A stretch of DNA of 64,000 nucleotides from an uncultured beta proteobacterium (GCA_903832285.1 CAILAY010000009.1:124001-188000); one strand, 5' to 3'; positions 7,335-32,587 are shown, counted from the stretch's first letter. Numbers and translations are program-made. Notes: generated from the sequence alone by a model not told the origin.

Positions 7335-7338
7335 AGCG

Positions 7339-8628: not shown

Positions 8629-8812
8629 TGCGAAAAGCCTCCCAGGGCCAGTTGCCGGTCAGCCTGTTGCAGAGCCAAAAACCGGTCGGGGAACTTGATA
8701 AATCACGTGCGATTCTGCACTCAAGCCCTTGATTGAGCAACGATAATTGACTTTGGTCTGTAACGAAAAAACAAAAAGTCGCGAAAATAGCGACAACTAA
8801 GCCCGCAATCCC

Positions 8813-11356: not shown

Positions 11357-11443
11357 CCCCGGCGTTCAGCTTGTTGCAGCCATGTAACCGGTTTCGTGTG
11401 AAAATTGGCGGTTAAGCGAAACAAAATAACCAGGAGACCGCTC

Positions 11444-12877: not shown

Positions 12878-13000
12878 AGCACCGCGATCCATTCGGACTG
12901 CGCACACTATCCAGGCGGGCTGTCCGCGCGTCCAGCCATAGCCCGTAAAATTGTCAGGTTCCCCAAGCGCTTTTTCTAACTTCTTTCTAAAGGTTTCATC

Positions 13001-14065: not shown

Positions 14066-14118
14066 GCTCTGCAGCGGGTCCAGCCCCGCGAAGGGGGACA
14101 ACGCTGTTGCGATAATCA

Positions 14119-14147
14119 AGGCCCGCTGCTGATCCAGCGGGCCTTTT
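14119..14147 (+). terminator. Rho-independent terminator downstream of fba
   Basis: aaggcccgctg-ctgat-c-cagcgggcctt hairpin followed by a T-run. Confidence 0.8.
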
Positions 14148-14189
14148 TCATTGCTGCGCCCACCCGCCACATCCACAACGCCGCCTGTC

Positions 14190-15074
14190 ATGACTTCTGC
14201 CCTGCACACCTCGACCCTCACTTCCCTTCCCTTGCTGGCTCGCGGCAAGGTGCGCGACAACTACGCCGTGGGCAATGATCGACTCCTGATGGTGGCCAGC
14301 GACCGCCTCAGCGCGTTCGACGTGATCATGGGCGAGCCCATTCCAGGCAAGGGCGCGTTGCTCACCCAGATGGCGCTGTTCTGGTTCGACAAGCTCCAGG
14401 GCCTGTGCCCGAACCACCTCACCGGCGAGGCACCCGAGAGCGTGGTGAGCCGGGCCGATCTGCCGCAGGTGCGGGGCCGCTCCATGCTGGTGAAGCGCCT
14501 GAAGCCCATCCCCGTGGAAGCGGTGGTACGAGGTTATCTGGCGGGCAGCGGCTGGAAGGAATATCAGCAGAGCCAGTCGGTGTGCGGCGTGAAGCTACCC
14601 GCCGGATTGAAGAACGCGAGCAAGCTGCCCGAACCCATCTTCACACCCGCGGCCAAGGCTGAGATGGGTGAGCACGACGAGAACATCAACTACGAGCAGG
14701 TCGAGAATATTGTGGGCCCGGAACTGGCCGCGACGATCCGGCATTTGAGTATTGCGATCTACAAGGCGGCCGCCGAGATCGCCCTGACCAAGGGCATCAT
14801 CATCGCCGATACCAAGTTTGAATTCGGCCTGGACGGCAACGGCACATTGACCTTGATGGACGAAGTGCTGACACCCGACTCGTCACGCTTCTGGCCGGCA
14901 GAGAGCTACGTCGAAGGCAGCAACCCGCCCAGCTTTGACAAGCAGTTCGTGCGCGACTGGCTGGAGACTCAGACCTGGGACAAGACCCCGCCGGCACCGC
15001 GCCTGCCCGCCGAGGTGGTGGTGAAAACGGCCGCCAAATACCAGGAAGCGTGGCAGCGGTTGACTGGCGCTTAG
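14190..15074 (+). CDS. purC: Phosphoribosylaminoimidazole-succinocarboxamide synthase
   Basis: [52 protein letters not shown]. Confidence 0.97.
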
Positions 15075-15124
15075 CCGGTCCCCGGTCATACGCGGCCCTG
15101 ACATCGGGCTGACCTGGCAGGTCG

Positions 15125-15165
15125 AACCTGGCGTCACGCATCAGGCCAGGTTGCGAATGTTTTTT
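15125..15165 (+). terminator. Putative intrinsic terminator downstream of purC
   Basis: 8-bp stem aacctggc (15125-15132)/gccaggtt (15145-15152) followed within about 8 nt by TTTTTT. Confidence 0.5.
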
Positions 15166-15276
15166 GCCCGCCGGATGTCTTGTTGTTCGGCCACAATTCG
15201 TTTACACCCGTAGCTGTTACTGCATCTTTTGCGAGGTCTTTGCGAAGAAGGAGCAGGCACCCAAGCTGGAGTATGT

Positions 15277-18138
15277 ATGCACCACCTGAACGCCGCCCGC
15301 TGGGCAGCCTTGAACCCGCAATTGGACGAGCTGCTGACGCTGCCCCCGCTGGAGCAGGCGCGCCGACTGGATGCCCTGGCTGCCAACGATCCGGCAACGG
15401 CCGGGCAGTTGCGCGCGCTGCTGGATGCGCGTGATGCGGCCAGCCGCGTCGATTTCCTGGGCGGTGTGGCGCACGATCCACTGATGGGTCAGGCCGAGGC
15501 AGCGGGCGATGTGCTCGGCTCCTGGACGCTGGTGGAGCCCATCGGACAGGGTGGCATGGGGAACGTCTGGCGTGCGCGCCGATCGGATGGTCGGTTCGAA
15601 GGCGAGGCAGCCATCAAGTTACTGCGCTCCGGGTTCGTTGACAGTGTTGCGCGGGAGCGTTTTCGGCGTGAAGGTGCGCTGCTCGCGAAACTGCATCACC
15701 ATGGCATCGCCCAGCTGCTCGACGCGGGCATCACCACCAGAGGCCAACCCTATCTGGTGCTTGAGCTGATACGAGGAGAGCGCATCGACAGGTGGTGCGA
15801 GCAACGGGCTTTGGGAATTCGCGCGCGCATTGCTCTCTTCGGACAAGTCCTTGAAGCAGTCGCGGCGGCGCACTCGCAGTTGGTGATCCACCGCGACCTC
15901 AAGCCCTCCAACATCTTGATCGATGCCAGTGGCAGGGTGAAGCTGCTGGATTTTGGTATCGCGCAGTTGGTTGACAACGAGGCCGGTCCAGGGCTCACGC
16001 GAGAAGGGGCGCTGGCACTCACACCGGAGTATGCTGCGCCGGAGCAGTTCAGTGGCGACTCCCTGAGTATGGCGACCGACGTCTATGGCCTGGGTGTCGT
16101 GCTGTTCGAGTTGTTGACGGGCGTTCACCCCAACGGATTGACCCAAGGCAGTGCTCTGGAGTACATGCGATGCGCCGCAGAGGGCAACTTCAAGCTGGCC
16201 AGCGAGCGACCCGGCGTAAACCGCAAGCTGCTGCGCGGTGATCTGGACAACATATTGCGCAAGGCGCTTCAGTCCGAGTCCGGGGATCGTTACAGTTCGG
16301 TGCTGCAATTTGCCGAAGATCTGCGCCGCCATCTGGCGTACGAACCCATTTCAGCGCGACCCGATTCGTTGACTTATCGAATTGGCAGATTCGTCCAGCG
16401 ACACAAGCTGGGCGTCGCTGGAACGGCCTTGTTTTCCGTGGCCGTTGCTGCTGGCGCCATCGGCACGGTGTCCGAGTCACGGCGTGCCGAGGCCGAGTCG
16501 GTGATCGCCCGTGCGGAACGAACCAAAGCATTGGAAGCTGCAGCGGAGTCTGCCTTGCAGCGCAATATCGCACAACAGCAGTCCGCAGCGGCAAATCGTG
16601 CCGCGCAGCGCGCAGCCGAGTCTGCCGCTGCTGCCCAGGCTGCCGCGATAACTGCTGATATCGAACGACAACGTGCGACGCAGATGCTGGCACGCAGCGT
16701 GAATGCGGAATACTTCAACAACGACTTGCTGATGCACTCCGCCAATGCCGGTCGGTCGCTGGACTTCAAGGCAATATTGGCGCAGGGTGAGTTTCTGGCG
16801 ACGCGTGAAAACAGCAACCCGCGGTATCAGGCCAGCGCACTTCTGACGCTGGTCGAGTTCTACAACTCAACGGGCGATGGGGCAAAGGGAACTGAGCTCG
16901 CAACCCGTGCGATCCGCAGTGCCGAGACGGCTCAGGATCACGCACTCGCGCTCCACGCACACTGCGCCCTCGGGCGCTCGTTGGTGATCGACGAAAAGAT
17001 CAGTGAGGGTCGCGTTGAGATAGAGAATGCCCTGCACGCCGCAGGCGGTGATGCGCAAATCAAGACCTACTGTTTGGAGAGTTTGGCCGACGTGGCCATG
17101 CGTTTGCGGGATGGAACCCGCATGCTCGAATATGCCAATCAGGCTTTGGCCTCTTCCAGGACAATACCTGTTCAATCACCCGCGCAGTCAGCATCCCTGC
17201 TGATATCAATTGCTGATGCCCATCGGCTGTTGCACCATACGCGGGAAGCTGAACAGAACTATTCGGCAGCCTTTGATGCGCTCAACCGCGCGGGCGTGGG
17301 CGAAGGCTGGGAAGCTGCCGACCTGCTTACCAACTGGGCTGCTTTCACCTCCGGAACGGGTCAACAACTTCGCACGCTGGCGCTGGCGGAAAAGGCCATG
17401 GCCATTGCAGGCGGCAACGCGGGCGCTGACAATCTGAATCCGTCACTACTGTTAACCCGTTGCAGAACCTTGACCACTTTGAATCGACTCGATGAAGCGT
17501 GGCAGGCCACAGAACGTGCAAGCGAACGCGCCAAAGCCGTTGGGAACCGCCAGGTGCAGGCATTGGCCGAACAAGCCTTCAGCCGCATAAGCATGCTTCA
17601 GGGCCGATTTGCCGATGCGTGGCAACACGCCGATAAATTCAGTGAATTGGTGGGTGCTATTCCACCAAACTCCCTTCCAGCGCTGGCGGTGCAATTTTCC
17701 CGCGCCAGGATTCAGCAGGCACAGGGCTTGAATGACGACGCCCTGAAAACGCTGGACAGTATTCGCCAGCAGTTGGATACGCTGTCGACCAAGAAGGGAC
17801 AAAATCAAGGTGTCGTGCCCTTGGTGTGGCAAAACTGGCTGGAGCTGCACGCTGACCTGCTCGGAGCAACGGGACACGCCCAGACTGCAATTTCGGAAGC
17901 ACAGGAGGCCATCCGGATTGCGCGAAGCCTGCAAAGCGCGGGAGCAGCCTCAGCCGATACGGGAACGTCAATGCTCGTGCTGGCGCAGCTTCAACTCACG
18001 GCGGCGGACAGGTCAACAGCAGCAGGTACGGCTGCCGATGCTGCATCCATACTGGCAGCGTCTCTCGGGCCCGATCATCCGAAGACAATCGCGGCGCGCG
18101 AGTTGGTGCGCAACGCCACTTCGCCGGTACTGCAATAG
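15277..18138 (+). CDS. Ser/Thr protein kinase with single TM helix, Ala-rich coiled segment and TPR-like C-terminal region
   Basis: IGQGGMGNVWRA (P-loop), AIKLL, VIHRDLKPSNILID (HRD), LLDFGIAQ (DFG), TPEYAAPEQ (APE), TM LGVAGTALFSVAVAAGAIGTV, then a helical repeat-rich region. Confidence 0.93.
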   Translation: MHHLNAARWAALNPQLDELLTLPPLEQARRLDALAANDPATAGQLRALLDARDAASRVDFLGGVAHDPLMGQAEAAGDVLGSWTLVEPIGQGGMGNVWRARRSDGRFEGEAAIKLLRSGFVDSVARERFRREGALLAKLHHHGIAQLLDAGITTRGQPYLVLELIRGERIDRWCEQRALGIRARIALFGQVLEAVAAAHSQLVIHRDLKPSNILIDASGRVKLLDFGIAQLVDNEAGPGLTREGALALTPEYAAPEQFSGDSLSMATDVYGLGVVLFELLTGVHPNGLTQGSALEYMRCAAEGNFKLASERPGVNRKLLRGDLDNILRKALQSESGDRYSSVLQFAEDLRRHLAYEPISARPDSLTYRIGRFVQRHKLGVAGTALFSVAVAAGAIGTVSESRRAEAESVIARAERTKALEAAAESALQRNIAQQQSAAANRAAQRAAESAAAAQAAAITADIERQRATQMLARSVNAEYFNNDLLMHSANAGRSLDFKAILAQGEFLATRENSNPRYQASALLTLVEFYNSTGDGAKGTELATRAIRSAETAQDHALALHAHCALGRSLVIDEKISEGRVEIENALHAAGGDAQIKTYCLESLADVAMRLRDGTRMLEYANQALASSRTIPVQSPAQSASLLISIADAHRLLHHTREAEQNYSAAFDALNRAGVGEGWEAADLLTNWAAFTSGTGQQLRTLALAEKAMAIAGGNAGADNLNPSLLLTRCRTLTTLNRLDEAWQATERASERAKAVGNRQVQALAEQAFSRISMLQGRFADAWQHADKFSELVGAIPPNSLPALAVQFSRARIQQAQGLNDDALKTLDSIRQQLDTLSTKKGQNQGVVPLVWQNWLELHADLLGATGHAQTAISEAQEAIRIARSLQSAGAASADTGTSMLVLAQLQLTAADRSTAAGTAADAASILAASLGPDHPKTIAARELVRNATSPVLQ

Positions 18139-18343
18139 GGCCAGTGCTTTTCAGCATCACCCTGGCACGCTCCCCTTTCGGGAGCTGTCCTTGGACGTCA
18201 GCGTTAACCGGGTGCCGGGACGCGGCCAGCCGGTTCAAGCCAGACGCTGGCGCAAAACCATTAGGAATCCCATCACCATGAATGTTGATATATGAACTTA
18301 TATTGACAATTTAAACGTGCATTGATATCGTGAAAAGGAGGCG

Positions 18344-18445
18344 ATGGACAGCTGGCTTGAAGCCGCATGGAGGGTTTCCTTTCATGATCCGCTGACTATC
18401 GTTACTGTCGCTCGGTGTCGCCAAAGTACGGGGACTTCAGGCTGA
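18344..18445 (+). CDS. Possible small ORF (33 aa, MDSWLEAAWRVSFHDPLTIVTVARCRQSTGTSG) or 5' remnant of a disrupted gene
   Basis: AAAAGGAGG directly upstream of the ATG; TTGACA-17 nt-TATCGT about 20 bp further upstream. Confidence 0.3.
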   Translation: MDSWLEAAWRVSFHDPLTIVTVARCRQSTGTSG

Positions 18446-18786
18446 GTATCTTTTTCAGACACTACCCATTTTTTCGGTGTACTGAGCTTCGACATAGAGT
18501 TGACAACGAGATTCAACATTGGATTGACGCGTTGCTGGAGCTGCCCCACGATCGACTGGCTGAGCTGCCCGAGGAGTCAACCGAGACCGTTGAGATCGCA
18601 GGAAGATCGGTGCGAATGACGGTTTTGCGCGAGCCACTTATTGACGGCAGCGTGTTATACGCTGTTTGCGCCAATCCACCCGCGCGTTTCAAACCCGCCA
18701 GCCGGTGCGCAGCGCGCGGCTTTGTTGTCGATCCGGTCGGCAAACGATCCCACTTGGCCGAACCCGTTTTGCGGATCTACGTCTGA
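18415..18786 (+). CDS. Hypothetical protein; only the region from about 'DNEIQHWIDALLELPHDRLAELPEESTETVEIAGRSVRMTVLREPL' looks protein-like
   Basis: Open frame of 123 codons with a plausible internal domain but unconvincing N-terminus. Confidence 0.4.
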   Translation: MSPKYGDFRLSIFFRHYPFFRCTELRHRVDNEIQHWIDALLELPHDRLAELPEESTETVEIAGRSVRMTVLREPLIDGSVLYAVCANPPARFKPASRCAARGFVVDPVGKRSHLAEPVLRIYV

Positions 18787-18975
18787 AAAGTGGCGCTTGG
18801 TTTCGGAGGTCAAAGCGCCAAGCGGGTCCTGGGGACGAGTCAATTGCAAGGCCAGACTCATTCTGGCAGACGCCGAGATAAATAGTCTTCAAGATCACCG
18901 CGCCATCTGCCGAAAACAGGGGACGGGCTGACTCCTGTGGCATAACTCACAGTGGCGGGTCTGGGGAGTATTGAT

Positions 18976-19869
18976 ATGTCTATTGGAGCAGTGGCCTCGG
19001 CCAGCGCCGGCGTCTATCAGGCGCCGGCTTACGCACCCATGACCGCGGCTACGGCAGCGCCGACAAACGCCGCGCACGGGACGGATAACGATCGCGATGA
19101 CGCGCCTCGCGCGGGGCAGAACTCGCTGGTGAGCGCCATGATGGCGGCATTGCAGGCCTTGGGTGTTGGGCAGGGGGCCGTCAATGCACCGACTGCGACT
19201 GCAACTGCGCCCGCTGCCCCGCCAGCGGTGGCGCCAGTAACGGCTCCCGCGACGGGTGCAGCAAACGCTGTGACCCCACCCGCGACGCCCGATGTGACGG
19301 CCAGCGCTGATGCCATCAAGCAGGCGGTGCAAGACTTTGCCCATGCGCTTTTTGATGCCTTGCATCATGCCGGTCGCGGCGACCATGCCCATCATCTCGA
19401 TGAGAACAGCCACGGTGGCGAACGCCAGAACAGCCGGGTCCATGGCTACGATGGCTTTTCGCAGCGCCTGCAGAAGCTGGCGTTGTCGCTGGGGGCAGCA
19501 GCCGCAGTGCCAGCGGACGCAAGCGCTGGCGCCAGTGGCCCCGCTCCGGCCGCACCCGGCCGTGCTGCAACGCGTCTGCTGGATGCCTTCACTAAGCTGA
19601 TGGGGCTGCTGCAGCCCCCGACTTCCGTGGCGCCGCCGGTAGCACCTGCCACACCTGCCACACCTGCCACACCTGCCACACCTGCCACACCTGCCGCGCC
19701 TGCCGCGCCCGTCGACGCTGTTGTGGTCGCACCGGCAGCATCCTCGGGCGCCACCTCTGTGGCCGATAAGCTCAAGCAGTTTCTGCTCGCCATGGCACAA
19801 GCGCTGCGGCCGTCCTCCTCCCACCCGCCACCCAACGCCGTGGGATCGTTGGTCAACGCCACGGCTTGA
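18976..19869 (+). CDS. Ala/Pro-rich low-complexity protein with several short amphipathic helices and a (TPA)n linker
   Basis: RBS ggggag upstream of ATG; MSIGAVASASAGVYQAP…; repeated helical blocks separated by AP-rich linkers. Confidence 0.65.
   Translation: MSIGAVASASAGVYQAPAYAPMTAATAAPTNAAHGTDNDRDDAPRAGQNSLVSAMMAALQALGVGQGAVNAPTATATAPAAPPAVAPVTAPATGAANAVTPPATPDVTASADAIKQAVQDFAHALFDALHHAGRGDHAHHLDENSHGGERQNSRVHGYDGFSQRLQKLALSLGAAAAVPADASAGASGPAPAAPGRAATRLLDAFTKLMGLLQPPTSVAPPVAPATPATPATPATPATPAAPAAPVDAVVVAPAASSGATSVADKLKQFLLAMAQALRPSSSHPPPNAVGSLVNATA
19639..19710 (+). repeat. In-frame 9-bp tandem repeat (gccacacct)5 plus degenerate copies, encoding (ATP)n
   Basis: Five identical gccacacct units from 19648, then gccgcgcct and gccgcgccc. 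Confidence 0.95.
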
Positions 19870-19896
19870 CGCCAGTTATTTCCCGCGTGCGAGGGG

Positions 19897-22800
19897 TCAG
19901 GAAACCTGCTGCAACCCATCAGGCGCAGCAGGCTTCCCGTCATTGACTTGTTCGGCCGGCACGTACCCCAGAACATAGAACTCCCGCGCGAACACCGGCC
20001 GCTCGGCGACGCCGGGCCTCGTCACCTGGCCGATGGGCGAACTGTCGGTGATATTGAAGTCGGCAAAGTGGCGTTCGTACTCACGCACGATGAGGCGACG
20101 GCGCTGGCCTTGCTGTGTGGGAGGCACGAGCATGCGGCCCGAAAACAGCAGGTCGTTGCGCAGCAAGTGCAGGCTTTGCAATCCGGCGTTGAAGATGTCC
20201 GACGAGATGATCGCCGAAGGCAGCGCGGCGCTTTGGCTCCCGGCCTTCTGACCTGGGGCGCTCTTCTCCTCCATTGCACGCTGAACGGTGATCAGCGGAG
20301 CCGTCTGGCCAGGCACGGCGTCGCCACTGAGCGGCGTGATCGTGGTCACATCTACCCAGTCGAGATCGGTGTCCAGGCCGCTGCTCTGCTGTTGCACCAC
20401 CATCTCGATGCGGTTGTGGCCACGGTCGTAGCCAAGCAGGTGGCCGAAAGCATCGGACAAGCCCGCAGGGGCATCAAGACGCCCCGTGAGTTCGCCACGC
20501 GCCGAGGCCGAGCCGAACTCCGGTGCAGCGCCGAACACTTGAAGGTTCATAAGGTTGCGTTCAATGTGTGTGAGGTGCAGTTCACGCGTGGGCAGCAGTT
20601 GCGCGTATTGGGTGTGCGCCACCGGCGAAAGTGCGCAACCGCCGACGGAATAGGGTTGCACTCGCACCAGCGCCAGGCGCACGAAGGGGTTGTAGCTTGC
20701 GCCCGCGTCGATCTCGATGTCGGCGAACCAAAGGCGGCGTTGAAAGTCGTAGTGCACGCGGTGGGCAGCGATTTCCATGTTGCCGTTGGCTTCCGGCAGC
20801 GTGAAGCTGTAGCTTGCCACCCTCGCAGCAAATGCGCTGGCGTGCATCACATTGCGCGGCAAACTACTCCCCAAGATGGGGTCCTGCCCCCACTGTGACA
20901 CCAAGCCGATCAGTTCGTCGGGCAGATCGGTAAAGGCTTGTTCCGTCGGGTTCGATGACCCCACCACAACGCCGAGCAACTCGCCTTCACCGCTTGAAAA
21001 CCACGGTCGTTCCAGGTACACACGCAAGCCGTTGCCGCGGCGAATGCTGACGGCATCTTGCCCGTTAGCGCTTGCCGTCTCGCTCCAGCGAAAGGTGGGT
21101 ACCACGTAGGCAATCTTGGGGACATCGGGTCGGCGGCTGCCGGGAACGATGATGCCGGGTTGCGGCGGCAGGGCATTGGGCAGCAATGGGGCGCCCAGCT
21201 CGGCGTCCACAGGAATGGGCGTGGGGGCGATGTCGGGGTCGGGGTATTGGTTCCCATAGGTTGAGGGCAAGGCAAGCACATGGCCTTCATACACCGGCCC
21301 CACGCGCACCAGACTGTTGCTGTCTGCAGTGATGGCCGGGGGCAGGTACTCGCGAAAGCGCGTGCTGGCGCGCAACTGGTAGCGCACGAGCCTGAACTTG
21401 TGGTCGCCAAACTCATGACGAATGTGCGCGAGCGCCGCCTCGGCGTTGCCGCGGCCCATGTCTTCAAACACCACGCCGCTGGCAGGCTCCTGGCTTTGCA
21501 GTGGTGGCGATGCAATGCCCACCTCGGGAAGTTGCGCGGTGAAGCGGCGACGCACAGGGGCGGGATGGACCGGATCGTCCAGCCATTCAAACCACTCGGC
21601 CAGGACTTCGAGTTTGGCGGTCGAGCGTGCGTGATAGCGCACCAAGGTGCGTCTCATCTCTGACCACGTTGCGCCGGGCCCGCGCATGATGGTCAAGCGC
21701 TCAAACACCGGCGCACACACCGGCTGCTGCGTGGCGTGCACCAGCACCAGGGGTCGATCGGGCGTGACCATCCAATGCGCGCCGAGCACGCTTTGGATGG
21801 CCACCTTCACCGGCGTGGCAGCGAGCTGCGGGATCGCGAGATGGTCAACATAGTGTGGCCTCAGCGCGCTGGCGTAGCGCAGGTTGGCGATCTCGCCCTT
21901 GCGCAGGTAGACCGTCAGGATGCGCTCGTTGCCGCCTTTCCAGGTGGGCAATTGAATGGGAAGGTCGATGCCCGGAGTGCAGCCGTCGAAGCCGGCTTCA
22001 TCGGGGTGTTCGACGATCACCAGCCGAAAGCCCTGCAGCTTGGGCCAGGTACCCGCCAACGGGACGATGAGCACATGCTCTTCGGTGCCAGGGATGCGCA
22101 CCGCGCGCACACCATCGGTGGCGTTGATCACCGCGTCGGCAAACACGCCGGGCACGCCGCGCATCGCCACGGCGGCAGCCATCGGGTCGGGCAGGTAGGG
22201 CGTGGCGAGGCTCGCCTCGGTGTGGACGAGGTACTCGCCAGGCAACAGGCGAAAGCCTTCTGGTGGTTTGTCGGTCAACTCCCGCTCCGGGGATCGTGGC
22301 ACCGCACCGTCCTTGGGTGGCGTCACGATGTGGACGCTGCTGCCGCCGTCGTAGAGCGTGCCCGCTTCGAGCGAGGTGATGAGCTTGTAGGTGTCTGCCT
22401 TCTCAGCAGCCGTACTTGTGGGGCCGAAGGCCTGCTCAAATGCGCCATGCTGCTCGGCCATGAGCTGGCTGGTCTTGGGCGGAACAAAGTGGCGCTGGTT
22501 CTCGGCCGTGTAGGCAAAGCCGCTGTCGCTGGGCACGTTGGCCGCATAGGTTGGGTGGGTCAGATAGGCGGGTGCGGTTTGGTCGAAGTTGCTGCGGATC
22601 ACCATGCGCTCCAGCGACTCGCCCTCCGAGACGCGGTCGCGCAGCGAGAGCACCGGCGCGTCGAGTGGCTCGTAGCGCAAGTAGCTGATGGGCTCGCTGG
22701 CTTCTTCCAGTTTGCCAAGCGAGTGGTCGTCAAAGAGCAGGCTGTTGCCCGCCAGATCGACCAGGCGAGCGCGCATCCGATAGGCGCTGCCAAAGCGCAG

Positions 22801-24690
22801 GCGCGGCAGGCTGCCGGACGCGGCGCTCACGTTGCGCGTGATGGGTGTGCCGTCGGCGTGGGTGTCGGCAGCGCTTTGTGCATCCACCTTTTCTTCTTGA
22901 ATCAGGCCCAACTTGTCACGATCCGAGGCGGGCGTGCTGCTGTCGGGATAGGGGCGGATGCGTCGGCCGGGCCGAGGGGCGACGAGGCTCCAGCCCGTCC
23001 ACTTGACGAGCGACTCATGAAGGTAGTGGTCCTGCGTGGCGCCCGGTGGCAATTCTGCTGGCGGCTTGGTGCTGGTGGAGGCGCCCGACACATAGCCTTC
23101 GTCCTTGGCCGGGTGGAGCGCTGGGCCGGCGCCGTCGGCCCAGCCGTACTCGGCCACGCGCTGGCACAGCGAGTTCCAGACGCCCGATTGCTCGGTGAAA
23201 ACGTCCACGCGGTAGCCACGCAGCACGTCCTCGGCATAGAACACGATGTTGTCGCCAAGGTGGCTGTTGACGGCGTCGTTCTTGAGGCTCGATGCAATGG
23301 TGTCGTCGGCCACATTGCCGGCGCGGCCATGCTCCACCAGGGTGATGCCGCCCGAGCGTAACGCCGCCACGGTTTCTCCCTGGCTGGTGGTGTAGGTGAG
23401 TTCGCCGGGTTGGCTCAGTGTGTCGGGGTCGAGCGGGTTGGACACCTTGGCCAGGTGGTCTTGCAGCGACAACGCGAAGCCCACCGTCTTGAGTGCGGCG
23501 CCGTCGGGGTCGACGGCGGTGAGAGCAAAGCCGCCGCCCTTGCCGCTGAACTCTTGCGCCTGCTTGCCGATGGGCCGTGCGCCAGAAAGGCGCAACAGCC
23601 CTGCTTGGTGGCGCGGGGTACGGGTGTCGCACGTGAAGCGCTTGGGCGTGAGCCAGAATGCGGTGGCGGGCGTGGTCTCTTCGGTGTTCACGTGCCAGCC
23701 ACCGTCGTGCTTGATCTCCAATCGCATCGTGCCTCTGAGCAACTGCTGCGGCTGACCATGCGCTTGCTCTACCAGCTTGCCGCTGCCGACCACCACCGCG
23801 TCGAGAACCAGGCCAAGCTCTCGCATGAGCGCTGGTGCATCGGCAAAACTGGAGGCGAGGCGATGGAAGTCAAACCCGGGCGCCTTGATGGCCGGACTGG
23901 CGGCACCGGCCACGGGCAGACGTTGGTAGGGGCGCTCGTTCTCGGGCCGTTGGTAAAAGCGGTTGGCCTGAAATAGCCCGTATTCAGGTTCGCCCGAAAA
24001 GTATTGAGCTGCAGCGCCCGACAGGTGTGCAGGTAGCGCGCGGCGCAGCTTGCGCCCGCCAATGAAGCTGGTGCTGTTGTCGTGCGGCCGGCCGTCGATG
24101 CCGGTTACTGTGCCGGGGGCGTAGCCCTGGTCGCTGAAGTAGTCGTCGTTGAGGCCGCTCTCGAGTCGCGTGCTGCCGCCTTCTTTGGTGCGACCATCAC
24201 TGAACCAGCGCCGGATGCCCGGGCTTCGTTTGGAGTGACCAATGCCGATCTCGGCCAGCATGCCTTGTATCCGGCTGCCCGGTCCAAAGAGTGAAGGGCG
24301 CGTCAGCCCGTCTTGCTCGGCCAACTCGCCGTAGTGGCTGTGCAGGTAGCTCACCACCGTACGTACCGGGAACGAGCGCAGATTGTGTTTGGACAGGTCG
24401 TTGTACACATAGCCTGCCACCGGCAGCGCCTCGGGGAACACGCGGTGCCACAGCACGGCGTCGGGTCGGGTGATGGGCTTGAGGTCGAACGCGCGGGCGG
24501 CCACGCGCAGGCGAAAGTGCGATGCGGCCAACAATGCCGGCCAGGCAAGCACATCAGGAAAGCCCTTGAGCACTTGCTCATCGGGCGCCAGCGGGGTGAG
24601 CCGGAACGACGGCACCAGCGACACCACCAGTTCGCCGTCCCGGCCATAGCCCTTGGGCAGCACGGTCCAGATGATTTTTTGTGTGGGCAT
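19897..24690 (-). CDS. Giant uncharacterised protein (about 1597 aa), second gene of a two-gene unit
   Basis: Single uninterrupted frame; MPTQKIIWTVLPKGYGRDGELVVSLVPSFRLTPL start; no signal peptide. Confidence 0.88.
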   Translation of the reverse strand: MPTQKIIWTVLPKGYGRDGELVVSLVPSFRLTPLAPDEQVLKGFPDVLAWPALLAASHFRLRVAARAFDLKPITRPDAVLWHRVFPEALPVAGYVYNDLSKHNLRSFPVRTVVSYLHSHYGELAEQDGLTRPSLFGPGSRIQGMLAEIGIGHSKRSPGIRRWFSDGRTKEGGSTRLESGLNDDYFSDQGYAPGTVTGIDGRPHDNSTSFIGGRKLRRALPAHLSGAAAQYFSGEPEYGLFQANRFYQRPENERPYQRLPVAGAASPAIKAPGFDFHRLASSFADAPALMRELGLVLDAVVVGSGKLVEQAHGQPQQLLRGTMRLEIKHDGGWHVNTEETTPATAFWLTPKRFTCDTRTPRHQAGLLRLSGARPIGKQAQEFSGKGGGFALTAVDPDGAALKTVGFALSLQDHLAKVSNPLDPDTLSQPGELTYTTSQGETVAALRSGGITLVEHGRAGNVADDTIASSLKNDAVNSHLGDNIVFYAEDVLRGYRVDVFTEQSGVWNSLCQRVAEYGWADGAGPALHPAKDEGYVSGASTSTKPPAELPPGATQDHYLHESLVKWTGWSLVAPRPGRRIRPYPDSSTPASDRDKLGLIQEEKVDAQSAADTHADGTPITRNVSAASGSLPRLRFGSAYRMRARLVDLAGNSLLFDDHSLGKLEEASEPISYLRYEPLDAPVLSLRDRVSEGESLERMVIRSNFDQTAPAYLTHPTYAANVPSDSGFAYTAENQRHFVPPKTSQLMAEQHGAFEQAFGPTSTAAEKADTYKLITSLEAGTLYDGGSSVHIVTPPKDGAVPRSPERELTDKPPEGFRLLPGEYLVHTEASLATPYLPDPMAAAVAMRGVPGVFADAVINATDGVRAVRIPGTEEHVLIVPLAGTWPKLQGFRLVIVEHPDEAGFDGCTPGIDLPIQLPTWKGGNERILTVYLRKGEIANLRYASALRPHYVDHLAIPQLAATPVKVAIQSVLGAHWMVTPDRPLVLVHATQQPVCAPVFERLTIMRGPGATWSEMRRTLVRYHARSTAKLEVLAEWFEWLDDPVHPAPVRRRFTAQLPEVGIASPPLQSQEPASGVVFEDMGRGNAEAALAHIRHEFGDHKFRLVRYQLRASTRFREYLPPAITADSNSLVRVGPVYEGHVLALPSTYGNQYPDPDIAPTPIPVDAELGAPLLPNALPPQPGIIVPGSRRPDVPKIAYVVPTFRWSETASANGQDAVSIRRGNGLRVYLERPWFSSGEGELLGVVVGSSNPTEQAFTDLPDELIGLVSQWGQDPILGSSLPRNVMHASAFAARVASYSFTLPEANGNMEIAAHRVHYDFQRRLWFADIEIDAGASYNPFVRLALVRVQPYSVGGCALSPVAHTQYAQLLPTRELHLTHIERNLMNLQVFGAAPEFGSASARGELTGRLDAPAGLSDAFGHLLGYDRGHNRIEMVVQQQSSGLDTDLDWVDVTTITPLSGDAVPGQTAPLITVQRAMEEKSAPGQKAGSQSAALPSAIISSDIFNAGLQSLHLLRNDLLFSGRMLVPPTQQGQRRRLIVREYERHFADFNITDSSPIGQVTRPGVAERPVFAREFYVLGYVPAEQVNDGKPAAPDGLQQVS

Positions 24691-24743
24691 GACTCGCTCC
24701 CTGCTTGATGAGGTGTTCGAAGGACGCTGATCGCCTGGTGGCT

Positions 24744-27700
24744 TCAGGCGAATGCTTCGCAGTAGTCGCGCCAGGCATACTGCGTGAGCGGTGTGATCAC
24801 GACGCCATCGCCCGGGCCCATGAGCGCGGCAAACGACGGGTCGCCGCTGGAGCCAGCGAACTTGCGCTCGCACGAAATCGACACGCTGGCCGAGAAGAAC
24901 AGTACGTGCACTTCGATGGTCAGGCTGGCGTGTCCGATGCACTTGCCTTCCTCGAAGATGTAGCAGAGGTCCATGTACAGTTCGATGGACGCCGAGATCA
25001 GCCCTAGCACATCCACGTAACCACCCAGGCGGAAGTAGCCGGTGAGCGAAGCCTTGTCCGGCTCCATCTTGAAATAGATGCCGGCCATGACATGCACGCC
25101 GCCGCTGGCCACACCGAAGTCAATTGCGATCGCCGCGCCGAACTCGAAACTGGCTTCGAGCTTTTGCACACCATGCGGGTCAATTGAAATACCAAAGAAC
25201 CCGCCACCACCAAACAGTGAGACCGTCAGGTTGAACGGCGCCTCGCGCGTGCAGAAGTTGAAGCGAACCGAGAGCGGCTGACCAATGAACGGCACCGTGA
25301 AGCCGGCCCCCAGGCTCAGGTTGGTAAGGCTCATGACCCCCACCGCAAGGTTGGGCAGAGCCACCGAGAAGCTGGCATCGATTCCGTGCTCGTCCACCGT
25401 CAGCCCCGGCGGATCGGAGAAGCCGTCAAGCGGGATCAGGTCGCGCAGCGCTTCCACGAACGAGAGCACCCCGATGAAATGGATGCCCGAGAAACCCACG
25501 TCCACATTGGTCTTGAGCGACGAGTCGGCGCTGAACTCGATCTTCTCGAATTCGAGCTTGATGAAGCCGGCGTCCTTGTCTCCCAGCAAGTTCAGGTCGA
25601 AGTGATTCAGCGCGCAACGCACATTTGCCACCGGCGCGCCGCCGCTCTTTTTGACCTTGGCTTCCACCGCCACCACGAAGCCCTTGGGGTCGTTGGGTTT
25701 GAACAGGTTGCCCAGCGCAGACAGCGGGTGGCCCGAGGCCGGAGGCCAGGGGGCAAGCGTGGGCGTGAAGGCAAATCGCACCACGATCTCATCGCCGATG
25801 AGCGACTCGATGATGGGCAGCAGCTTGTCCACGGCAGCCAGTACATCGCCCAAGCTGCTCACCAAGCCGAGCAGTGTCTTCTTGACTGTGCCTTCAATGA
25901 GTTTCAACGGCGAAAGTGCGGTGCCAAACGCGCCCAAAGAGCCGTTCAGCGCGGTCAGCAGCGGGCCGAGCTGCCCGTTATCGATCAGGATCTTGATCTG
26001 GTCGGGCGACACCAGCACCGGTAGGAGTTTTTGGTAAACATCCTTGGCAGCGTTCAACGCGGAGGGGATCTGTGCGAAGTCGGCGAGTGTGTTCTGCACC
26101 TGCTGGATGCGCTGCTGCACGAGGGCGATCTGCTGTCGCACTACCTGGATCGTGGAGGCGGACAGCCCATCGGCACCCGGCAGCTTGAGCACGTTGTCGC
26201 GGCTGAACAGCGCAGTGGCCATGGCCTGAAGGGCGCCAAGCACCGGGTCGAGCGCGGCCTGCAACTGCACCGGGTTGGCAAGCAGTGCGTCGGACGCCGA
26301 GCCCAGTGCGGAGGCAACGGTGGTGGCCGCAGTCACTACCGCCTGTGCCTGTGCTTTCAGGGCCGAAGTGTTGGCGTCGAGCACCGCGAGTTGCTGGGCC
26401 ACAGTATCGAATGCGGCTTTGATGGCCTGCTCGATCGCGGCTTTGGCGGCGTTCTTGACCAGGCCGGCGATCACATCGTCAACCTTGTCGAGTTGCCCCA
26501 GGTTGTTGAACAACGCTTCACCCTCTTGCAGCGCTTCGGTGACGAAGCTGGGCATCTCGTCAAAGCCGGCCGCACCCGCGATCTCCTTGACCAACTCGCC
26601 CAGCGGGATGCAGCCAAACAGCAGGGGCGACAGGCTGCCGAAAAAATCGGTGGGCTTGAACTGCCCCGCAGCCACTTGCGCAAGGTCGCCCGACACCGGG
26701 CCCTTCAAGCGCGACAGACCGGTGGGGGCGAGGCTGGGTTGCACGAAGCCGCCGGAGCGATTGCCGCAGCTCGTGAAGTCGAGCGCCTGCCCGCCCGCTT
26801 GGAGCTTGGCATAGACCTCGCCATCACCGAAGCCGGTCTCCAGGGATAGGAAACCCTCTTCATAGTTCAGCACGTTGTTGCCCGTGCCGCCGGTGAGCGC
26901 ACCGATGGTGGGCAGGCGCACCTCGGCCTGGATGATGCTCGGACGCATCAACGGACTTTCGATGTTGCCGAGCAGGCCTTCGGTCTCGCTGCCGAAGACG
27001 ATGCGCTCAACTTCATTGGCGGTGTCGCCTGGTTTGGACGGTGGCGCGAGTGCCACCTTCTGGCGCTGCATGATGGCGGTACGCCAGGGCTCATGGGCCG
27101 GGGTGAGCCAGTCTTGCTGCGCGGCGTGGAAGCCGTCCATGACATCACCAACCACCGGATTGGCCACCGCGTTGTCGATGAAGATCGCCGGCAGATCAAA
27201 GTGGACTGGGTTGCCGTCGAGGTCGGTGGCCTCGTACTTGAAGCGGAAAGGCTCCGAGCCGCCGGATGTCGGAATCGACGGCCAGAACATCGCCTGGCCC
27301 TGGGCCTTGCCATTGACGTAGAGCTGGGTCGCGCTGGGGTCGGCAATGTCGGGTGTGACCTCAGTCAGCAAGCGCACCACGGGGAAGGGGAAGGCGCGGT
27401 GGTAGTACTGCCGCTTGCCGCCCACCATCTTGAACAACCGGGTCTCGGGGAACTCGCGCACCGGCTCGCGCACGATGAAGTACATCCGTTGCAGCACGTA
27501 GGCCGGGTTGCCGGGTTCGCCCTTCAAGAAGAATCGCTCGCTGACCTTCACCAGCGACACGCGATGGCCGAACGGCAAGCAGTAGCCCTTGTAGATGACG
27601 CGCACATAGTGATCTCGTGCCTGTGCTGCGTGATGCACCCATTGCTCGACAGAGAGCCCGGGTGGAACATGCCAGTCGCCCCGTGCGTCGAGCCAGCCGC

Positions 27701-29129
27701 CCATGCTCGAGAGCATCAGCCGTTGGCAGTTGACCGGCTCATGGTGCCCACCGTGCAGCGCGAAGTTGCCCGACAAATGCACGACGTTGTAGCGATCTCG
27801 GTCATCCAACGTTTGGCGAAAGAGCTTGAACGGTTTAGTGTCGGGACCCATTGCGTGGGGGGTGGCATCCCAGTGGTCGGTGAAGATCGTCTGATCAGAC
27901 TCCGGCCCACCGCGTGCCCAGATGGCACGAATCGGTTCATCCAGCGGCTCGTGGATGTCGCTGTCGGCCTCCTTCTTTTTCGCCATCCGCGTGAGCCACA
28001 GGCTGGTGTGGCCCGTGGCCGCAGAAGACGCGGGCAGCGCGTCATGCGCAAAGCGCGCTTCGCCGTTGGGCGAGAGTTGCAGGCGGAACGGCAGTTCCAC
28101 TGCGGTCTCATTCAAGGCCGGCTTCTTGGGCCGCGGTACCGTGACGTACTTGAAGAGGGGCGACTCGACCGCAACGAGGGCCGACACCGAATTGCTGAGC
28201 GCGAGGGCCGACAGGGTGGTGGGCAACGTCTGCGCCTGGCCAGCCGCGCTGGCCACGCGTTCCAACGACGCATTCGCTTGCGGGAAGGGCAGGTCACCAC
28301 GACGCATCAGCACCACGCTGGCCTGCGCCCCAAGACGACGCGCCAGTTGTTGATTGCGTTGCGCACTTGCCAACACGGCGGCTTTGTCGCTCACACTCAA
28401 GAGCTTGTAGGCTGCGCTCACGTCGGATTTACGCGCCTTGCGGTACGCCGCGACTTTGGCGCGGCGCAAAGGCAGTTGATAGCGCGCGTTGGCGGCCACG
28501 TTGAGGTTGAGCGCGCGGCAAGCATCCAGAACGCCCGCGAGCGTGTAGCGGACCGGCCAGCAGTTGGCCGCGCGCAGTTTGTCTTCGTCAAAGCGGAAGA
28601 CCAGACGGCTCGGATAGGCGATGCGCGTGCCGATAGGGGGTGGCACCAACTTTTCTTCCAGCGTCGGCGGTGGCGCCGGCTGATTGACGTGGCCGTCCTG
28701 CTGCGTATTCCCGCTCTTTGACGCCGCAAAGAACACTCGCTCGGCAATGGCTTGCGGCGCGAAGTGCAGGGTGATGTAAGCCGCACCCCGACCCGTGATG
28801 GCCAGGGTTGGAGCGCCAACTGAAGTGCCGGTGGGAGGCAGCGCGTGCAGATTGCGCAGCTCAAGGTTGAACGAGAGCAGGTCTTGTGAGCGCACCACCC
28901 ATTGACCGTGGCGTCGCAGTGGCTCAGGCGCGAGCAACTCGCCCAACTGCATGCCTTCAATGAAGTCGGGCCGCAAAGCCAGTTCCTGAAGGAAAGCAGC
29001 TGGTGAGAGCTTGCGTCGCCGGGATAGTCGCAAGGCTCGATTTCCTGCAGCGCCCGATCCGCTGCCTGAACCGGTATTCATTCCGGCATCCGAAGACTTG
29101 GCACCCGAAGAATGTTGAACCATGGTCAT
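24744..29129 (-). CDS. Giant uncharacterised protein (about 1461 aa): N-terminal mixed region, central Ala-rich helical region, C-terminal Gly/Phe-rich beta-like region; possibly DUF6603-like
   Basis: Single uninterrupted frame; FEFGAAIAIDFGVASGGVHVMAGIYF…LTGYFRLGGYVDVLGLISASIELYMDL…LTIEVHVLFFSASVSISCERKFAG C-terminus; 53-bp gap to the downstream giant gene. Confidence 0.88.
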   Translation of the reverse strand: MTMVQHSSGAKSSDAGMNTGSGSGSGAAGNRALRLSRRRKLSPAAFLQELALRPDFIEGMQLGELLAPEPLRRHGQWVVRSQDLLSFNLELRNLHALPPTGTSVGAPTLAITGRGAAYITLHFAPQAIAERVFFAASKSGNTQQDGHVNQPAPPPTLEEKLVPPPIGTRIAYPSRLVFRFDEDKLRAANCWPVRYTLAGVLDACRALNLNVAANARYQLPLRRAKVAAYRKARKSDVSAAYKLLSVSDKAAVLASAQRNQQLARRLGAQASVVLMRRGDLPFPQANASLERVASAAGQAQTLPTTLSALALSNSVSALVAVESPLFKYVTVPRPKKPALNETAVELPFRLQLSPNGEARFAHDALPASSAATGHTSLWLTRMAKKKEADSDIHEPLDEPIRAIWARGGPESDQTIFTDHWDATPHAMGPDTKPFKLFRQTLDDRDRYNVVHLSGNFALHGGHHEPVNCQRLMLSSMGGWLDARGDWHVPPGLSVEQWVHHAAQARDHYVRVIYKGYCLPFGHRVSLVKVSERFFLKGEPGNPAYVLQRMYFIVREPVREFPETRLFKMVGGKRQYYHRAFPFPVVRLLTEVTPDIADPSATQLYVNGKAQGQAMFWPSIPTSGGSEPFRFKYEATDLDGNPVHFDLPAIFIDNAVANPVVGDVMDGFHAAQQDWLTPAHEPWRTAIMQRQKVALAPPSKPGDTANEVERIVFGSETEGLLGNIESPLMRPSIIQAEVRLPTIGALTGGTGNNVLNYEEGFLSLETGFGDGEVYAKLQAGGQALDFTSCGNRSGGFVQPSLAPTGLSRLKGPVSGDLAQVAAGQFKPTDFFGSLSPLLFGCIPLGELVKEIAGAAGFDEMPSFVTEALQEGEALFNNLGQLDKVDDVIAGLVKNAAKAAIEQAIKAAFDTVAQQLAVLDANTSALKAQAQAVVTAATTVASALGSASDALLANPVQLQAALDPVLGALQAMATALFSRDNVLKLPGADGLSASTIQVVRQQIALVQQRIQQVQNTLADFAQIPSALNAAKDVYQKLLPVLVSPDQIKILIDNGQLGPLLTALNGSLGAFGTALSPLKLIEGTVKKTLLGLVSSLGDVLAAVDKLLPIIESLIGDEIVVRFAFTPTLAPWPPASGHPLSALGNLFKPNDPKGFVVAVEAKVKKSGGAPVANVRCALNHFDLNLLGDKDAGFIKLEFEKIEFSADSSLKTNVDVGFSGIHFIGVLSFVEALRDLIPLDGFSDPPGLTVDEHGIDASFSVALPNLAVGVMSLTNLSLGAGFTVPFIGQPLSVRFNFCTREAPFNLTVSLFGGGGFFGISIDPHGVQKLEASFEFGAAIAIDFGVASGGVHVMAGIYFKMEPDKASLTGYFRLGGYVDVLGLISASIELYMDLCYIFEEGKCIGHASLTIEVHVLFFSASVSISCERKFAGSSGDPSFAALMGPGDGVVITPLTQYAWRDYCEAFA

Positions 29130-29441
29130 GCTCCCTCTTTTCGTAGCCCACCTGCCGCAAGCTCCATTGATCCCAGCTTTGCTCGTTGCCCATCTGCCAA
29201 CTGACGGGAGCATCGGCCGCGAAACAGAGATCAGGGTTGGTTTTCGTAGCAACTATACAACTGATAATTGCCGCGCCTCCGCGAAGGGCAAAGTGAGTGT
29301 GAACCGTGGCGCCCCTTTGATGCGGTGAGCCGCGCTGAGAGTGACCTTGTTGCGATGAAGGGGACTCATCCAGCGACAAAATGACTCTCGCCACATCCGG
29401 TGGCTCAGACAGCAGCTCTATTCTGCTGAGGGAGATTCACG

Positions 29442-29741
29442 ATGGTTGTTTTTAGCCGGGGCGCGTCCATCGCGCCGGGAAAGACCGCAAGTGCGATTCG
29501 CTTTGCCCACGAAATTAGCGCCTATCTCAAGTCCACTTGTGGTATCGAACTTGAGGTTTTGATGCCGATCGGTGGCAACCCGAATCGTATCGGCTGGTCG
29601 ACCCGATACCAGGATCTTGCGGCACTGGAGGCAACGACTGCAAAGATGACAGCCGACCCGAAATACTGGGAAATGGTAAACAAGGGCGCTGACAACTTTA
29701 TCGCGGGGTCAATCCGCGACGCGATGTGGCGCACGGTTTGA
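29442..29741 (+). CDS. Small protein (99 aa), possible NIPSNAP/dimeric alpha-beta-barrel-like
   Basis: RBS gagggag upstream; MVVFSRGASIAPGKTASAIRFAHEISAYLKSTCGIELEVLMPIGGNPNRIGWSTRYQDLAALEATTAKMTADPKYWEMV. Confidence 0.7.
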   Translation: MVVFSRGASIAPGKTASAIRFAHEISAYLKSTCGIELEVLMPIGGNPNRIGWSTRYQDLAALEATTAKMTADPKYWEMVNKGADNFIAGSIRDAMWRTV

Positions 29742-29873
29742 GCCGGTAGTTGGCACGGGGCGTTGCCGCAGCGACCCAAGGATTCGCCACCGGACATGTC
29801 ATCTGCATGACGGCTCCGCGCACTGAAGAACTACGTCAGAAGAACCACCACAACATTAAGTTTCACCCCGCGG

Positions 29874-30830
29874 TCAGTTCAGCATCATGCTCAGGCGGCG
29901 GCGGTAGCGCGACACCAGTTCCGCCTGCGGGTCTTCCTTCGCCGCGGACTTGCCGGCGATCTCGATGCCGCCTGTGGTCTTGTTGCCAGCGTCGGCACTC
30001 GTTTTAGGCTTCGGCGGCGTGAGCAACTCCAGGATTGCGACCATGGTTTTGCGCGCGGCTTCGTCGTTCCACTTCTTGTCGCGCATGATGATTTCCAGCA
30101 ATTCGTCCATGGCGGCGGTCCACTCGCCTTGCGCCATGAGAACGCGGCTCTTGGCATAGCGCAGTTCGAAGTCGCGCTTGTTTTCGCCGATCCTCGTGTC
30201 AAACTGTTCCACGGACCACGCCGAGCGGGCGTCGCTGGCGGCAAATTTCAAGGCCTCAAGCCATTGCGCCAGCGCTGAAAATCGCAGTCCCAGAGGAATT
30301 TCGCTCAACTTTGGCGCAAGCGCGCCTTGCGCCTCCTCGAAAAGGTGGGAGCCAATGAGCAAGCGCACATAGTCGTAGCGCGCATCATCATTGCCCGGAT
30401 TCATTGCCAGCGCTTCAGCCAGCTTGTCGAGTGCCGCAGCGGTGTCGCCTTCGGCCAGGAGCTCCTGTGCTTCCTCAGCCTCGGTGGCGGCAGCCAATTC
30501 TTCCTGCGACGGCAGATGCTTGTCCAAGAACTCCCGCAGCTTGCCTTCGGGCAGCGCACCCGCGAAGCCGTCCACGGGCTTGCCGCCGATCATCAGAATG
30601 CAGGTGGGAATACTGCGGATGCCGAAGGCTGAGCTGAGCTGCTGCTCCTGGTCGGAGTCGATCTTCACCAGCTTGAAGGCGCCGGCGTAGTCTTGCTCCA
30701 GCTTCTCAAGCAGCGGGCCGATGACTTTGCAGGGACCGCACCAAGGCGCCCAGAAGTCGATCAGGACAGGCGTGGAGAAGGAAGCGTCGATGACGTCGGT
30801 CTGAAAATTTTGTTCGGTAATGTCAATCAT
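29874..30830 (-). CDS. cnoX: Thioredoxin with C-terminal TPR-like region (CnoX/YbbN-like)
   Basis: VLIDFWAPWCGPCKVIGPLLEKL active site, FGIRSIPTCILMIGGKPVDGFAGALPEG, helical C-terminal half. Confidence 0.88.
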   Translation of the reverse strand: MIDITEQNFQTDVIDASFSTPVLIDFWAPWCGPCKVIGPLLEKLEQDYAGAFKLVKIDSDQEQQLSSAFGIRSIPTCILMIGGKPVDGFAGALPEGKLREFLDKHLPSQEELAAATEAEEAQELLAEGDTAAALDKLAEALAMNPGNDDARYDYVRLLIGSHLFEEAQGALAPKLSEIPLGLRFSALAQWLEALKFAASDARSAWSVEQFDTRIGENKRDFELRYAKSRVLMAQGEWTAAMDELLEIIMRDKKWNDEAARKTMVAILELLTPPKPKTSADAGNKTTGGIEIAGKSAAKEDPQAELVSRYRRRLSMMLN

Positions 30831-30866
30831 TCGGGATAGCTCAGGGGTAAAACGTAAAATTCAACA

Positions 30867-31367
30867 ATGACTCAAATTCTAGTTGGCGTGGTGATGGGCT
30901 CCAGTTCTGACTGGGAAACGATGCAACACGCGGTGCAGATACTGCAACAGTTCGGCATTGCCCACGAAGCGCGTGTGGTGTCTGCGCATCGCATGCCGGA
31001 CGACATGTTCGCCTACGCCGAGAACGCCGTGCCGCGCGGCCTGAAAGCCATCATCGCCGGTGCGGGTGGTGCGGCCCACCTGCCCGGCATGCTGGCGGCC
31101 AAGACCCTGGTGCCGGTGCTGGGCGTGCCGGTGGCTGGCAAGCATCTGCAAGGCGTGGATTCGCTGCACAGCATGGTGCAGATGCCCAAGGGCGTGCCCG
31201 TGGCAACCTTTGCCATCGGCGCTGCGGGGGCCGCAAATGCGGCGCTATTTGCAGTGGCCTTGCTGGCCAATGAAGACCCCGCGCTGCGCGCGCAACTGCA
31301 GCGTTGGCGAGAGGCGCAAACGGAGATCGCGCGTACCATGACGCTACCGCCAGCAGTCGGGTCATGA
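30867..31367 (+). CDS. purE: 5-(carboxyamino)imidazole ribonucleotide mutase
   Basis: [48 protein letters not shown]. Confidence 0.97.
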
Positions 31368-32566
31368 AGGCGATTCTTCCTGGCACTTCTGCCAGTGGGC
31401 AGCAGACCACGCTGGGTGTGATGGGCGGCGGTCAGTTGGGTCGCATGTTTGTGCACGCCGCGCAAGCGATGGGCTACTTCACGGCGGTGCTCGATCCAGA
31501 CCCCGCCAGCCCGGCCGGCCTGGTAAGCCACTTCCACATTCAGACCGGCTACATGGATGAGCAGGGGTTGGCGCAGATGATGCAGCGCTGCGCTGCCATC
31601 ACAACCGAATTCGAGAATGTTCCTGCGCCGGCGCTTCGCACGCTTGGCGTGCAGCGGTTGGTGGCGCCACGCGCCGACGCGGTCGCCGTTGCGCAGGATC
31701 GCGCTCTGGAGAAAGCGCATTTCGTGCGCTGTGGTGTGCCCTGCGCGCCTTACGCGGTGATCGCTTCGGCCGAGCAGTTGCGCGCCGTGCGTGATGCACT
31801 CTTGCCCGGAATCCTGAAGACGGCGCGTCTGGGCTACGACGGCAAGGGCCAGATCCGCGTCAACAGCCGCGCTGAATTGACCAGCGCCTGGGCCCAGCTC
31901 AAAAGCGTGCCCTGCGTGCTGGAGCAGATGTTGCCGCTGGCGAACGAATGTTCCGTCATCGTGGCGCGCGGCGCCGACGGCACCGTGGTCAACTTTCCAC
32001 CGCAGCTCAACCTGCATCGTGACGGCATCCTCGCCGTGACCCAGGTATTCGAGGGAAATCTTCCCGCAACGCTGACGCAAAAGGCGGTGGATGCGGCGGT
32101 TGCCATCGCTACCGGCCTGGACTACATCGGTGTGCTGTGCGTGGAGTTCTTCATCCTTCAAGCTGGCAGCAGCGCGGCCCGGGAATTGGGAGCGTTGGTG
32201 GTGAACGAGATCGCGCCCCGCCCGCATAACAGCGGGCACTACACGCTCGATGCCTGCGACCAATCGCAGTTTGATTTGCAGGTGCGAACGCTTGCCAATC
32301 TGCCGCTGGTGCAGCCGCGCCAGCACAGTCCGGCCATCATGCTCAATCTGCTGGGTGACCTGTGGTTGCGCAGCAGCGATACGGCGCTCACACCGCCCTG
32401 GAGCGAAGTGCTGGCCCTGCCCGGAACCACGCTGCAGTTGTATGGCAAGCTAGAGGCGCGCCCGGGCCGAAAAATGGGACATCTGAACATCACCGGGGCG
32501 CAGCTGGCCCAAGTCCGTGGCACGGCGCTGCGTGCCGCAGACCTGCTGGGCATCGCCCCGTTCTGA
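31364..32566 (+). CDS. purK: 5-(carboxyamino)imidazole ribonucleotide synthase
   Basis: [54 protein letters not shown]. Confidence 0.96.
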
Positions 32567-32587
32567 GCTGTTGCTGCGCGTTTGTTC

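Follow-up and report, generated by a model that had tools for sequence, protein, structure and literature searches.

Several described systems come close to parts of the arrangement analysed here. PaoABC is a Tat hitchhiker complex (PMC4273604), and the cargo of the Tat pathway is usually quoted, in review, at up to ~150 kDa (PMC6708511). TatAdCd of Bacillus subtilis is a translocase with a single cargo, PhoD (PMC6708511), while Giant1-5 of fructophilic lactobacilli are five genes for surface proteins of 3000-8000 aa, found in one narrow group (PMC12863079). Published work on giant proteins, on the size of Tat cargo and on private TatA holds precedents, but no account of the gene 1/gene 2 pair that is the subject of this study.

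The pair lies in a stretch of 64,000 nucleotides from an uncultured beta proteobacterium (GCA_903832285.1, CAILAY010000009.1:124001-188000), hereafter the window. With Tat hitchhiker complexes such as PaoABC it shares subunits that are made together and, in many of its relatives, a Tat signal on one subunit; unlike them, the window copy is without a Tat signal, no cofactor-binding domain was found in the pair, and the predicted cargo is 260-570 kDa, against the ~150 kDa usually quoted (PMC6708511). A signal on one subunit and none on its partner is found in relatives and not in the window pair, and because this defining signal was looked for there and not found, we withhold the hitchhiker label from the window pair. 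A tatA gene beside the pair suggests, as for TatAdCd and PhoD, a translocase component co-expressed with one cargo, whereas among the tat genes tatA alone was sought, and of roughly a hundred loci four proved to have it as a neighbour. Like Giant1-5, the pair consists of consecutive, accessory genes for very large and presumably extracellular proteins, but it has two subunits and occurs in many phyla, the two systems being compared by description only.

The features of the locus are collected in Table 1. Both proteins have full-length homologs in many phyla (~27-78% identity), and dN/dS equals 0.09-0.15 between close relatives and 0.17-0.26 against neighbours that are 71-77% identical. With such homologs, and with purifying selection this strong (overall dN/dS 0.09-0.26), both frames are true coding genes and have not arisen by chance. 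A purine-rich stretch resembling a ribosome-binding site precedes the ATG of each gene. As judged from the alignment, compact homologs have no helical insertion in gene 1, and in the giant forms of Rhizobiaceae it is far longer. The motif WxxYCxAFA is kept in 12 aligned gene 1 homologs, Bacillus and Streptomyces among them, and in a 64-row consensus, and gene 1 terminates in or near it from Bacillus through to Pseudomonadota. An earlier, sequence-only reading had described two uninterrupted minus-strand frames, of 1461 and 1597 codons and separated by 53 bp, with signature stretches quoted from them, and had suspected homologs in actinobacteria and other phyla; the frames are indeed open throughout, the stretches are present in the proteins, and such homologs were found. 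New relative to that reading are the helical insertion and conserved C-terminus of gene 1, the Tat signal of distant gene 1 proteins, the neighbouring tatA genes and the location on a mobile island.

Table 1. Features of the gene pair and of the segment that carries it (window coordinates).
Feature	Position	Strand	Details and basis
Inserted segment with the pair, 14.8 kb	15059..29871		Between convergent purC (left) and a thioredoxin-TPR gene, trxA (right)
Gene 1	24744..29129	-	1461 aa, 156 kDa; uninterrupted ORF and translation, homologs
Gene 1, predicted layout: N-terminal beta domains, helical insertion, C-terminal amphipathic beta-sheet domain			AlphaFold of compact homolog L097 gene 1, pLDDT 84
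Gene 1 residues ~869-1112: Ala-rich helical (coiled-coil-like) insertion, 244 residues	25794..26525	-	Alignment, compositional helical profile matches
Gene 1 residues ~1110-1440: most conserved region, long-stranded antiparallel beta-sheet	24810..25802	-	Alignment and model strands
Gene 1 C-terminal motif WRDYCEAFA (consensus WxxYCxAFA)	24747..24773	-	Alignment
Intergenic gap, 53 bp, gene 1 stop to gene 2 ATG	24691..24743	-	Sequence
Ribosome-binding-site-like AGGGAGCGAG immediately 5' of gene 2 ATG	within 24691..24743	-	Sequence
Gene 2	19897..24690	-	1597 aa, 174 kDa; uninterrupted ORF and translation, homologs
Gene 2, probable array of Ig/Fn3-like beta-sandwich domains			AlphaFold of L094 gene 2 residues 1-1200, pLDDT 89
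Gene 2 signature GLRVYLERPWFSSGEGELLGVVV, near-invariant across phyla	20962..21030	-	Alignments; served as scan pattern

Gene 1 and gene 2, whose giant products are mostly beta, make up one mobile unit and are not inherited apart. Gene 1 lies directly 5' of gene 2 on the same strand in all 91 loci where both are visible, with a median gap of 15 bp (range -4 to 309 bp, 86 loci with a placeable gene 2 start), and in the six loci without gene 1 the contig itself begins within gene 2. Among GTDB species representatives, a profile of gene 2 gave 384 relatives, 78 loci of which were fetched and read; tblastn against plasmids gave adjacent pairs in Rhizobium, Cupriavidus, Diaphorobacter, the Bacillus cereus group and Streptomyces. 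Since the GTDB scan was seeded with gene 2, a less biased test of presence and absence was made in 350 genomes of the order, where the gene 1 profile and the gene 2 profile each matched the same five genomes and no others. Additionally, the pairwise identities of gene 1 and gene 2 correlate with r = 0.963 (55 loci). Pieces of gene 2 are retained near transposase-like genes in Ensifer L130, Rhizobium L131 and Bradyrhizobium L132, and in Rhizobium L007 gene 1 is split. The proposal of the sequence-only reading that the pair is inherited as one obligate unit, with homologs of both always adjacent, is therefore borne out, the singletons being solely contig ends or remnants near transposase genes. 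We infer that the two proteins bind each other as a heteromer. Expression of the pair may, as that reading also supposed, be conditional.

A conserved third gene beside the pair was sought across phyla and none was found. The Ser/Thr kinase that adjoins the pair in the island was also considered as a partner and rejected, no homolog of it lying beside other pairs. Extra secreted-looking proteins are common to small clades only (Balneolota/Rhodothermota).

About 20 distant gene 1 homologs have a twin-arginine (Tat) signal at the N-terminus; a strict rule gives 16 of them and inspection by eye another four, to which Ruegeria L129 is added with the N-terminus KISRRTFLGSSLAITAAPALA; calls beyond NCBIfam were made with a home-made rule that combines a regular expression with hydrophobicity. 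Such N-termini occur in Streptomyces, the long forms of Rhizobiaceae, Ruegeria, Balneolota, Rhodothermota, Bacteroidota, Armatimonadota, Myxococcota, Chloroflexota and others, and the same scan gave no Tat signal on gene 2. With the NCBIfam TAT model (TIGR01409, cutoff 16.7 bits), 2 of 10 tested N-termini reach the cutoff (L017 with 23.3 and L018 with 16.7 bits), and most of the others are just under it or not reported. Gene 1 of the window has SRRRKL at its N-terminus with no hydrophobic stretch after it, hence no Tat signal, and neither window protein has a signal peptide, as had been noted from the sequence. The genome has another pair, on contig C56, and neither this pair nor its plasmid relatives show a Tat-type N-terminus.

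A tatA gene (PF02416, E 2e-9 to 3e-15) adjoins the pair in three loci; in L083 and L093 it lies immediately 5' of gene 1 and in L017 immediately 3' of gene 2, while a fourth follows the gene 2 remnant in Ensifer L130; no further convincing tatA is present in the flanks of the loci scanned. As L017 and L130 belong to related lineages, these amount to about three independent associations. In a FastTree tree (unrooted, with several long branches), the window falls in a clade that has strong support and consists of 54 rows, nearly all from Pseudomonadota; the scan gave no Tat signal in this clade, and its members have in common a ~240-aa helical insertion and a C-terminal extension of gene 2. This clade sits next to six Tat-bearing rows, the direction of the Tat change being unrooted.

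Therefore, since the two genes are constantly co-inherited and gene 1 of many distant relatives has a Tat signal, in some cases with tatA, a giant complex outside the cell is probable. To hypothesize, gene 1 and gene 2 would encode the two subunits of a giant, mostly-beta, mobile heteromer that is extracytoplasmic in the wider family, with gene 2 as a Tat hitchhiker, a reading to which we give about an even chance. Gene 1 would be the carrier subunit, with the twin-arginine signal in many lineages, and signal-less gene 2 would leave the cell as a hitchhiker on it, several lineages presumably supplying a private tatA for the pair. Because the gene order is tightly spaced, the subunits probably assemble in the cytoplasm, and the conserved sheet of gene 1 together with its C-terminal WxxYCxAFA helix are candidate contacts to gene 2. 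The predicted mass of the pair in Tat-bearing members (~260 to 570 kDa) is above the ~150 kDa quoted for Tat, so that gene 1 might be exported without gene 2. As the Pseudomonadota clade of the window is without a Tat signal, its copy would be exported by another route or would have been recruited to an internal role.

The second of these possibilities can be extended to a cytoplasmic complex in the window clade (a scaffold, a sequestering or a storage particle), the Tat signal being limited to lineages that place the scaffold outside. It seems rather unlikely, although the 54 rows without a Tat signal and the same lack in the C56 pair and its plasmid relatives speak for it, and the insertion and the gene 2 extension of the clade are consistent with a change of use. 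Against it, the conserved sheet of gene 1 and the core of gene 2 are identical in kind between Tat and non-Tat members, and Ig/Fn3-like arrays are extracellular as a rule.

The structural models are of homologs of the window proteins, with the window proteins included in the alignments behind them. Gene 1 of L097 (compact, 985 aa) was modeled with pLDDT 84 and pTM 0.70, and residues 1-1200 of L094 gene 2 with pLDDT 89 and pTM 0.74, both mostly beta. In Foldseek searches against the PDB, the gene 2 model matches Ig/Fn3 domain arrays non-specifically (E down to 9e-8), and the gene 1 model has large barrels and, in a few cases, lipid-transfer proteins among its matches (E down to 4e-4). The pair is thus like PDB Ig/Fn3 arrays, large beta-barrels and lipid-transfer sheets in its secondary-structure pattern, but the TM-scores are ~0.1 by query length and the rmsd mostly >20 A for both genes, with no specific superposition. 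Judged by its model, gene 2 looks like Ig/Fn3-like sandwiches joined in a chain, with generic PDB matches. The sequence-only reading had named a confident structural match to a well-characterised system as what would speak against it; the homolog models gave generic PDB matches only.

In the C-terminal sheet of gene 1, 16 long strands are hydrophobic on one face and polar on the other (mean face difference 2.95 vs 1.25 +/- 0.24 when shuffled within strands). Long amphipathic strands would also suit an outer-membrane beta-barrel of the porin, LptD or usher type; the Foldseek TM-scores are ~0.1 here too, and the relatives include Gram-positive bacteria, which have no outer membrane, and Tat-type members. 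The strongly alternating faces of the strands would also agree with a carrier of hydrophobic ligands in the manner of apolipoprotein B/MTP or TULIP-type proteins, the complex moving lipids or other hydrophobic compounds, and among many porins there are weak Foldseek matches to ApoB-100, MTP, P47 and OrfX1-OrfX3. Such a function is doubtful, as these matches have E values of ~6e-3 to 9e-3, probabilities of 0.13-0.47 and TM-scores of ~0.1, and alternating strands occur in ordinary beta-sandwiches and outer-membrane barrels too. On the preferred reading of an exported heteromer, the Ig-like array and the amphipathic sheet would most likely make the pair an accessory extracytoplasmic binding or structural complex.

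Searches with single sequences and with profiles (Pfam, NCBIfam, PHROGs, PADLOC, PDB) gave no significant match for the two window proteins in Pfam-A, NCBIfam, PHROGs, PADLOC or PDB sequences, the profile searches yielding solely compositional helical matches to the coiled-coil-like insertion of gene 1. In keeping with what had been read from the sequence, neither protein has a significant match to autotransporter, RTX, Rhs, helicase or nuclease domains in Pfam and NCBIfam. No PADLOC-DB model for anti-phage defence matches the window genes or gene 1 of L017. A phage structural protein or phage origin was rejected, with no significant PHROGs match and no match among phage records; in one IMG/VR contig (L102) the pair lies near phage head-like genes. 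The pair fits no known family and is in this sense new, though it may turn out to have an ordinary role.

The pair is accessory and horizontally mobile, as can be seen from its plasmids, an island with an empty site and its patchy occurrence. Window positions 6612-15058 and 29872-33594 are contiguous by blastn in L125 (subject positions 5533 and 5529). Since the flanks at 15058 and 29872 abut in the same-genus genome G274, the window has a 14.8-kb insertion and the purC-trxA site is empty in G274; in three more genomes of the genus the similarity ends at ~29874-29878, the same right-hand edge. Terminal repeats of at least 11 bases were looked for over a few hundred bases at either end of the island, and there were none. 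The pair is absent from four other species of the genus (0/4) and, with its own genome counted, present in 5 of 121 close relatives and in 2 of 274 genomes of the class. The pairs closest to it belong to Rhizobacter and Pelomonas (70-71% in gene 2), and one near relative is in a MAG labelled Holophagaceae, which could be misbinned. The pair on contig C56 (L022) is much diverged from that of the window, and in Microvirga, Tistrella and Candidatus Chlorohelix its relatives are two-gene units too. Copies in L009 and L014 adjoin NRPS/PKS-type genes, and the L018 and L019 copies are on plasmids near restriction or Dpd genes. Soil, water or sediment is the source of many carriers, and these are not bound to a host.

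A reading of the pair as a toxin-like effector, or as a large antagonistic factor that is secreted, would agree with this patchy, plasmid-borne and island-borne distribution and with the NRPS/PKS-type, restriction or Dpd neighbours. We find it slightly harder still to credit than the lipid carrier, since there is no toxin, nuclease, protease or PADLOC match, no conserved immunity gene and no conserved third gene outside small clades, and many carriers are not host-bound. That the two proteins are merely co-transcribed and do not bind each other is very improbable, as invariant adjacency across phyla, with neither partner lost and no third gene, exceeds usual co-regulation.

The preferred reading of an exported heteromer, with its physical complex, the co-export of gene 2 with gene 1 and the role as an extracytoplasmic binding or structural particle all inferred, can be taken a step further. 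Tentatively, the family could be an undescribed class of giant, cofactor-free two-subunit complexes of ~260-570 kDa that fold and assemble inside the cell and are exported whole by Tat, in some cases with a private TatA, and redeployed without a signal in Pseudomonadota. The pair is very large, and its carriers number hundreds of species (one scan of species representatives gave 384 relatives); no intact locus was seen in which it is split. Pfam-A and NCBIfam contain no family model for it, and no structure of a relative has been solved. Its Tat-signalled members, some of them beside tatA, are a natural test of the maximum size of folded Tat cargo, and the same members test whether a cargo-specific TatA raises this limit.

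The table collects features next to the pair and at homologous loci. The small frame between trxA, the thioredoxin-TPR gene, and gene 1 is divergently oriented with respect to gene 1. On the other side of the pair, Pfam matched nothing in either of the overlapping frames, of which the plus-strand one is rich in Ala/Pro, and no homolog of this Ala/Pro-rich frame, nor of the Ser/Thr protein kinase, was found beside other copies of the pair.

Features at the pair and at homologous loci
Feature	Position	Strand	Size	Context
Intact small frame	window 29442-29741	+	99 aa	between trxA and gene 1, within insertion
Two overlapping open frames	window 18952-19869; 18895-19824	+; -	~305-309 aa	directly downstream of gene 2
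Ser/Thr protein kinase, long C-terminal region	window 15229-18138	+		within 14.8-kb insertion, with the pair
Ruegeria sp. THAF33 pair	L129 4656-20290		gene 1, 3311 aa; gene 2, 1899 aa	plasmid
Viral-collection pair and adjoining genes	L102 33-3759; 6406-14233
Second two-gene unit, own genome	L022 8319-16862	-		contig C56

In Balneolota/Rhodothermota (L076, L078, L080, L092), two more conserved genes lie downstream of gene 2, both with secreted-protein-like N-termini; those of these genes that were searched against Pfam gave no confident match. Gene 1 of Ruegeria sp. THAF33 begins with a textbook Tat (twin-arginine export) signal. Three small genes come after the pair on this plasmid, and secreted-protein-like N-termini are seen in two of them.

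L102 is the sole match from the viral collection. Here the pair adjoins genes that resemble those for the prohead protease, portal and terminase of phages; this locus is perhaps a prophage edge.

The genome from which the window comes also carries another two-gene unit, which has diverged strongly; a gene for an ECF sigma factor lies a few kb downstream of it. Relatives of this second unit are carried by plasmids of Microvirga, Tistrella and Candidatus Chlorohelix.
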